Source: Chlorops oryzae (Eukaryota; Arthropoda; Insecta; Diptera; Chloropidae). Taken from it: DNA of 64,000 nucleotides. The stretch's first letter is position 1, and every line of letters starts with the position of its first letter. Positions 61,746-62,603 of this stretch are shown here, piece after piece. The notes beneath the pieces are model-generated. The model did no database searches. It was not told the origin of the DNA and was given only the letters and a program-made list of their open reading frames with translations. The position numbers and the translations under genes are program-made. The DNA lies in NCBI GenBank assembly GCA_020466095.1, contig CM035808.1, positions 75,137,188-75,201,187 on the forward strand. Reading direction: 5' to 3'.

Positions 61746-62603
61746 CTAATGCATTGTTCCTTTCCACAGTTTATTGAAGGTTTTGCCAGTCCTACTAATC
61801 GAAACTATGTATATTCTATTATTAATTTTTATTTTAAATTTTCTAGATTTTCCTGGTTCGTATTTTTGCCTAAGTTCGTTCATTTTCTGTTGCAGTTGCT
61901 CCCTGTCGGCCTCTGTTTCTTTCTGCATCTTTGACAGTTTTTTGGCATCTCCTGCTCCGCCAGTTATAGCTAACCTCTGCTGGTCTATTAATTTGCTTAA
62001 AAAATCTCTTGTCAGCATACTTTCTGCCACAAACGCGTCCCGAGGTAAAAAAGGCTTGTTGAAGTCCATAAGTTCTCTATACTTTTCCGCGAAACGAAGA
62101 ACGTATATCCCGCAGTCGTTTAAATTAGTTTGTTGGCTGCAATCCGGGTATATCAGTGGCATTGTCTCTTCGTTATATATTACTTTATCCTCCGGAAATC
62201 TGCGTCTGGCTTCCCATTGGACTGCTCCTCTAATGTTTCTCGCTATACTGGTGGCATCGTGGGGACGTAGTGAATCGAAAATGTAAATTGTTGGCCAAGT
62301 GATCACTGCCAGCATCCAATGATTATGAGCGTGGATAGGGATCATTACCGATTTGTAGTCAAAAATGCTAGTCCTATTCAAAAAACTGCTCAATCGTGTG
62401 GCCATTTGGTCTGGGTACTGTTCCATCTTCTCCGTGCATGTATAGAAATGGGTGTCTAGCACATGGATTTCTTTCTTGACGCTCTTATTGATCAGCCATG
62501 ACAGGAGTGCGTTTATATGGTCGTCATTTAACCAATTTGTTGCAGTAATATCCGTTAGCGCCGTCCAATCTATTTTTCTTATTTTTCCGTTTTTGGCTGC
62601 CAT
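61746..62603 (-). CDS. Ulp1/SENP-like C48 cysteine peptidase encoded by gypsy element B
   Basis: Intact 285-codon ORF with ATG at 62603. Ulp1 fold signatures: NWLNDDHINALLSWLIN (residues 23-39; substrate-entry motif), AHNHWMLAVITWP with His95, TIYIFDSLRPHDA with Asp110, SQQTNLNDCGIYVLRFAEKY with Gln157/158 and Cys164. A charged helix KMQKETEADREQLQQKM and a basic beta-rich end RIYIVSISRTGKTFNKLWKG lie beyond the peptidase core. Neighbours: integrase C-terminus ends at 62767 and env starts at 61618, all on the minus strand. C48 enzymes process or remove SUMO-like modifiers. Adenovirus-type and Ulp-type proteases occur in Mavericks and some plant MULEs; one between pol and env of a gypsy element is unusual. 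All three catalytic residues are present; the substrate is unknown. Confidence 0.88.
   Translation of the reverse strand: MAAKNGKIRKIDWTALTDITATNWLNDDHINALLSWLINKSVKKEIHVLDTHFYTCTEKMEQYPDQMATRLSSFLNRTSIFDYKSVMIPIHAHNHWMLAVITWPTIYIFDSLRPHDATSIARNIRGAVQWEARRRFPEDKVIYNEETMPLIYPDCSQQTNLNDCGIYVLRFAEKYRELMDFNKPFLPRDAFVAESMLTRDFLSKLIDQQRLAITGGAGDAKKLSKMQKETEADREQLQQKMNELRQKYEPGKSRKFKIKINNRIYIVSISRTGKTFNKLWKGTMH

Follow-up and report, generated by a model that had tools for sequence, protein, structure and literature searches.

Why would an endogenous retrovirus of a fly carry, between its pol and env genes, a peptidase of the SENP/Ulp1 type? The question is posed by a 64,000-nucleotide stretch of the Chlorops oryzae genome (assembly GCA_020466095.1, contig CM035808.1, positions 75,137,188 to 75,201,187; hereinafter the window), in which a gypsy-type element on the minus strand contains an intact open reading frame (ORF) of 285 codons that a sequence-only reading had taken for a C48 (Ulp1/SENP-like) cysteine peptidase. 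The frame is present at the place and on the strand reported (Table 1), with the motifs WLNDDHI, HNHW, FDSL and QQTNLNDCG starting at residues 24, 93, 109 and 157 and the predicted catalytic set, His95, Asp110, Gln157/158 (the oxyanion Gln) and Cys164, located as claimed, and the Pfam search which that reading proposed returns Peptidase_C48 with an E-value of 5.5e-15 (56.2 bits against a cut-off of 20.7). The gene order pol-C48-env is borne out as well: upstream, on the same strand, are Integrase_H2C2 (5e-19) and rve (5e-16), and downstream, again on the same strand, is a Baculo_F env (1.2e-6, above the cut-off). The provirus, the 5' end of which lies outside the window, is damaged, the C48 ORF being the only intact one among its visible genes; the single in-frame stop in env is missing from some other copies. 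A fusion of the peptidase with pol or env can be rejected given that the C48 frame differs from that of the integrase end, with stops in between, and that the C48 stop is followed by an acceptor-like sequence, beyond which env opens. Rejected, too, is a Polinton/Maverick with an adenovirus-type protease: the neighbors are a reverse transcriptase (RT), a CCHC gag and a Baculo_F env, and the protease matches SENPs (PolB, packaging ATPase and capsid were not searched for).

So could this be an accident of one provirus? A tblastn search of the window with pieces of the element reveals a second element with the same order of integrase, C48 (match at 39774-39016) and env, which also retains an RNase H piece; no aspartyl protease was detected by Pfam in this damaged element. 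The second C48 protein is 48.9% identical to the first over 266 amino acids (3e-87) and passes the Pfam cut-off on its own (45.2 bits). When the 442-Mb source assembly was searched with the window C48 protein, at least 136 scored matches were obtained, some of which are fragments of one copy. A total of 70 loci were read, namely 30 returned with the search, the window copy among them, and 40 more. At 61 of these, C48 is flanked on its own strand by an upstream integrase and a downstream env; the nine loci off this pattern comprise three with env only (L017, L056, L057), one that is scrambled (L052), two with neither gene (L051, L054) and three with another arrangement (L068-L070). Thus, a single chance capture of a host gene, the outcome that the sequence-only reading had named as fatal to its own claim, is ruled out: there is a second copy in the window, and the genome holds a whole family of such genes beside gypsy-type elements. 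With the second window copy added, 30 of the 71 copies are open over the catalytic domain and tail, and these fall into five clusters, A (8 copies), B1 (8, including the second window copy), B2 (7), B3 (4) and C (3), with protein identities of 50-51% between A and B, 65-68% among the B clusters and 31-33% between C and all others. Seven proteins submitted to Pfam (the window A and B1 copies, L031 of B1, L034 of B2, L045 of B3, and L068 and L069 of C) all match C48, at 44-63 bits versus 20.7. We propose that env-carrying gypsy-type elements possess this ORF as a heritable accessory gene for a SENP/Ulp1-type C48 peptidase. Its predicted activity is the removal of SUMO from proteins of the host, which would be likely to weaken SUMO-dependent silencing, that is, heterochromatin guided by Piwi-interacting RNAs (piRNAs); taken whole, this reading has in our judgment an even chance of being correct. 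The part of the earlier interpretation that stands is the existence of a C48 gene in env-bearing gypsy-type elements; the removal of SUMO and the role in silencing are what we, too, infer.

With which part of the element does the gene travel? The presence of C48 tracks env, specifically one env clade, and not pol. On the pol side, 56 of 126 integrase places have a listed C48 match on their strand no more than 3.5 kb downstream, compared to an expectation of approximately 0.0006 per place, and the distribution over integrase identity is uneven: 19/19 at 88% or more, 7/40 at 80-87%, 1/2 at 74-79%, 24/56 at 68-73% and 5/9 at 60-67%. The remaining 33 places of the 80-87% group have no C48 among the matches listed, and a search with the B2 protein adds no case; because that search yields only seven copies at about 100% among the matches listed, along with far weaker ones, these 33 places very probably lack the B2 gene. 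This pol lineage appears to have been recently amplified, with many equal scores and many frames that stay open for about 1,300 codons, and its integrase is closely similar to that of the C48- and env-bearing subfamily B2. On the env side, with 103 places, a listed C48 lies upstream of 21 of the 24 that have at least 80% identity and of 36 of 44 at 53-79% (thus just upstream in 57 of the 68 at 53% or more), as against 0 of 35 at 45-52%. It would be tempting to describe the latter group as a sister env clade wholly devoid of C48, but this is contradicted by 3 of the 35 places, at which a distant C48 (28-29% identity; C1:59117616, C761:1827 and C3:69186744) is located, by coordinates only, 690-799 bases downstream of env on the same strand, and further env places of this group may carry C48 genes beyond the matches listed. 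A within-window control is provided by a BEL/Pao element (30117-38403; 392-bp long terminal repeats (LTRs) with 4 mismatches; 5-bp target-site duplication ATAGT) that has inserted into the second element's env; its own Baculo_F env comes straight after pol, with no C48.

The same linkage is apparent from quartets built with one copy each of A, B1, B2 and B3 (uncorrected distances, 1000 bootstraps). The integrase quartet groups (A,B2)(B1,B3) in 1000/1000 replicates, whereas C48 groups (A,B3)(B1,B2) in 979/1000 and the larger part of env yields the same grouping in 858/1000; the bootstraps for the short N-terminal part of env are split 493/320/187, with most for the integrase grouping. Given that C48 and the larger env part share a grouping that the integrase does not, recombination relative to pol appears to have moved C48 together with most of env, as a cassette. 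Furthermore, there are two other ARRANGEMENTS around env besides the sense C48 upstream, namely, antisense 3' of env (subfamily C) and, judged by coordinates, sense 3' of env. In L068 and L069, which lie on two contigs and are 97% identical over 4.78 kb aligned, C48 comes after the env frame (Pfam 'Gypsy' match, 6e-18) but is read from the other strand; in L070, most of env is deleted. The start of this antisense gene, CACA-ATG, directly precedes a 60-nt stretch that begins with GTAAGC and ends with TTTTAG in L068 and TTCTAG in L069 and L070, behind which the frame resumes, for 280 residues in total. The stretch is thus a predicted intron of 60 nt (L068:2811-2873, minus strand), present at three loci, two of them with the same sequence there; lying on the antisense strand, such an intron would not be lost when the sense RNA is reverse-transcribed. 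With the C protein as query, the matches listed include eight places at 96-100%, three of which are those read, and a further set at 28-30% identity in which the alignment spans the tail. Since A, B and C have in common not only the catalytic domain but also tail residues (Leu237, Gly251, Ser270, Arg271, Gly273), the simpler account is that the gene was acquired once and later relocated; with no host genes in a tree, it may instead have been captured more than once.

A bolder version of the proposal, which we hold tentatively and consider somewhat less than probable, is that these elements are a group of insect endogenous retroviruses with a deSUMOylase of their own, devoted to opposing SUMO-dependent piRNA/heterochromatin silencing, and that the enzyme moves with env as a cassette between pol lineages and occurs in three arrangements. 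The very same facts can be turned to a different account, under which the SUMO protease serves a particle or infection step, with Gag, integrase, Env or trafficking proteins of the host as its targets, whether in producer or in recipient cells. Such a role would explain why the gene goes with env rather than pol, why C48 and the larger env part agree against the integrase, and why env is the neighbor of the gene in each of the three arrangements, and because of this linkage a function in infection has to be kept in view. The divided bootstraps of the N-terminal env part fit this account poorly, as does the C48 protein itself, which by eye has no signal peptide at its N-terminus and is not fused to a structural protein; all told, we regard it as unlikely, although a serious competitor.

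What, then, would the enzyme cleave? Under the accessory-gene proposal, the substrate would be SUMO, the main targets would be proteins of the Piwi/Panoramix/Su(var)2-10 silencing branch, and the element would benefit by being expressed more strongly in gonads or in cells that it has newly infected. Alternatively, this could be a CE-clan peptidase with another substrate, such as ubiquitin, NEDD8 or the polyproteins of the element, in the manner of the core proteases of poxviruses and African swine fever virus. The predicted model of the C48 protein matches the SENP fold, albeit with low model confidence and with NEDP1 tied. Sequence searches against solved chains argue for the SENP side: they return the SENP1, 2, 3, 5 and 7, Ulp1 and Ulp2 types, and neither NEDP1 nor a viral protease. 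For the window ORF, the best matches include SENP7, SENP5, SENP1 and SENP2, the first two being level, and profile scoring puts SENP7 first. In SENPs, two Trp residues flank the tunnel that accommodates Gly-Gly, and both are kept in the element protein, as W24 and W96. We consider the alternative substrates improbable. Nor do we class the protein as SENP7: a large insertion inside the catalytic domain is a feature of the SENP6/SENP7 family, and SENP7 aligns in two stretches, between which about 60 chain residues (143-205) have no counterpart in the element protein. The C-terminal tail is predicted to form one long helix and three strands; a fold search with it gave nothing at E 0.001 or better, with a weak likeness to retroviral integrase cores at E 0.37.

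The gene also bears the marks of constraint. All 30 open copies keep W24, His95, W96, Asp110 and Gln157/158, and 28 of the 30 keep Cys164; with decayed copies included, Cys164 is kept in 66/71, Asp110 in 68/71 and His95 in 66 of the 69 aligned at that site. In two otherwise open copies, L010 and L012, the catalytic Cys164 is replaced by Tyr. The ratio of replacement-site to silent-site differences (pN/pS) is 0.26-0.28 among the B subfamilies, 0.40-0.43 for A versus B and 0.56-0.65 against C, with pS between subfamilies of 0.67-0.86, that is, near or at saturation; among the sense subfamilies, silent-site change is 2-4 times replacement-site change. Within subfamilies, close pairs range from 0.27 to 1.58, as expected where dead copies drift. 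Between the two window copies, for which silent sites are near saturation, pN/pS is 0.40 for C48 (bootstrap 0.33-0.49), 0.29 for the integrase core (overlapping matches count one stretch twice), 0.24 for the integrase end and 0.36 in each of two parts of env. Accordingly disfavored already, and in our view highly improbable, is a passenger, a host SENP gene captured once and carried without use, which would sit well with the 41 of 71 copies that are not open and with the many related pol copies that lack C48, but not with catalytic residues kept across subfamilies that are 31-68% identical, with silent sites near saturation and pN/pS of 0.26-0.43 between the sense subfamilies, or with the occurrence of the gene in three arrangements.

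How might the protein be produced? Errantivirus env is expressed from a spliced RNA. An acceptor-like sequence, identified by eye as a pyrimidine-rich CAG just before codons resembling an env signal peptide, lies between the C48 stop and env in eight of the ten sense copies printed, at least one each from A, B1, B2 and B3, the exceptions being L007 and the second window copy. In open A, B1, B2 and B3 copies, again with the exception of the second window copy, a C48 Met is located 18-23 codons before Trp24. These signals fit a spliced env RNA and a separate start of C48: in the A and B subfamilies, translation of the peptidase is predicted to begin at a separate ATG that precedes the env splice acceptor, and in subfamily C, the protein is predicted to be made from the antisense strand via the 60-nt intron.

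Table 1. Coordinates of the two C48-bearing elements in the window
Feature	Position	Strand	Remarks
C48 (Ulp1/SENP-like) peptidase ORF	61746..62603	-	catalytic domain ~19-190, conserved C-terminal tail ~205-285
Pol end (Integrase_H2C2 + rve core)	63041..64000	-	Pfam; continues beyond window edge
Integrase C-terminal part, other frame than core (frameshift)	62767..63183	-	MLVIN_C and SH3_Tf2-1, both below cut-off
Predicted env splice acceptor	61618..61629	-	pyrimidine tract, CAG 61621-61619, exon from 61618; between C48 stop and env; by eye
Env N-terminal part, Baculo_F	61241..61684	-	ends at in-frame stop in window copy
Env C-terminal part	60029..61240	-	hydrophobic stretch near end, by eye
Second C48 copy (subfamily B1)	38995..39777	-	open over 260 codons; in-frame stop just upstream
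Integrase of second element	39970..41218	-	broken by stops and frameshifts
Env N-terminal part of second element (Baculo_F)	38365..38841	-	interrupted by BEL/Pao insertion
Remaining env of second element	29234..30126	-	far side of BEL/Pao insertion
RT of second element (RVT_1)	41619..42641	-	Pfam
Zinc-knuckle (CCHC) part of gag of second element	45237..45788	-	domain match

On the three largest contigs, C48 places crowd in middle to distal regions (C1 58-116 Mb, C2 39-69 Mb, C3 53-91 Mb) that are perhaps pericentromeric; two places at C3:16.66 Mb stand apart. Elsewhere in the window there are a host gene between the repeats, an inward-rectifier potassium channel exon (50011-50943, minus strand; IRK_C, 2.8e-71), Copia-type remnants (Pol_BBD, RVT_2) and another RVT_1 reverse transcriptase (3576-9020 and 15118-15543), a long imperfect palindrome at 52112-53366 (arms of 49-214 nt, 90-94% complementary; about 88% self-complementary as a whole), a tandem pair of 120-bp units that are 99% alike (56734-56974) and an assembly gap of 100 N (17823-17922). 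Rfam, tRNA and bacterial promoter scans of the window returned nothing of use.

Is such a gene known from other systems? In a set of 5.8 billion proteins, a single C48 sequence query found no relative, a two-sequence profile found one C48 protein, and a six-sequence profile found two proteins named sentrin-specific protease 7; no relative was confirmed for the C48 query in viral contigs or phages, or for the integrase query in viral contigs. Word counts for SUMO and Ulp1 are zero in PMC12992720, PMC12440569, PMC13172572 and PMC5408684, as are those for SUMO and Ulp in PMC7264820, and our literature search showed no paper on a C48 gene in an env-bearing LTR element among those listed, for broad queries the best 20-30 of up to 1,286; bioRxiv and most subscription papers were outside its reach, so an earlier report may exist. 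The elements described here resemble errantivirus-type Ty3/gypsy elements, the insect endogenous retroviruses, in their H2C2 and rve integrase, RT, RNase H, CCHC gag and Baculo_F env, and in the acceptor-like sequence at the place expected for env, but add a C48 peptidase beside env. This peptidase shares the C48 fold and catalytic residues with the SENP/Ulp1 proteases, with the best profile score for SENP7, and differs from the latter in being borne by a retroelement, in a tail with no confident fold match and in the missing stretch of about 60 residues. Ginger1 DNA transposons are not known to carry env. They combine a gypsy-type integrase with an Ulp1 domain in one element, the latter being a C-terminal domain of the transposase rather than a separate gene (PMC2836005). 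The KIU genes of plant VANDAL/Mutator-like elements (MULEs) have a transposon-borne Ulp1 domain and belong to a gene family tied to escape from silencing, although in DNA transposons and within VANC-type genes (PMC13317346), and the nematode NeSL and Utopia are retrotransposons with an Ulp1-like protease domain, although non-LTR ones that carry it at the N-terminus of the RT protein (PMC4640811). In the plant LTR retrotransposons Grande, RIRE2 and Retand, as in subfamily C, an additional gene lies antisense in the interval from pol to the 3' LTR, for which no clear similarity to known proteins is described, unlike the recognizable peptidase with a predicted intron found here (PMC7264820). Thus, the capture of Ulp1 by DNA and non-LTR transposons is already known, and its capture by env-bearing LTR elements may be new. 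If the proposal is correct, an animal retroelement would possess a direct, testable counter-defense against the piRNA/heterochromatin branch, in the form of a tag-reversing enzyme kept under constraint beside env, and this would connect the Ulp1 captures in plant MULEs, Ginger1 and NeSL/Utopia, the purpose of which is unclear.
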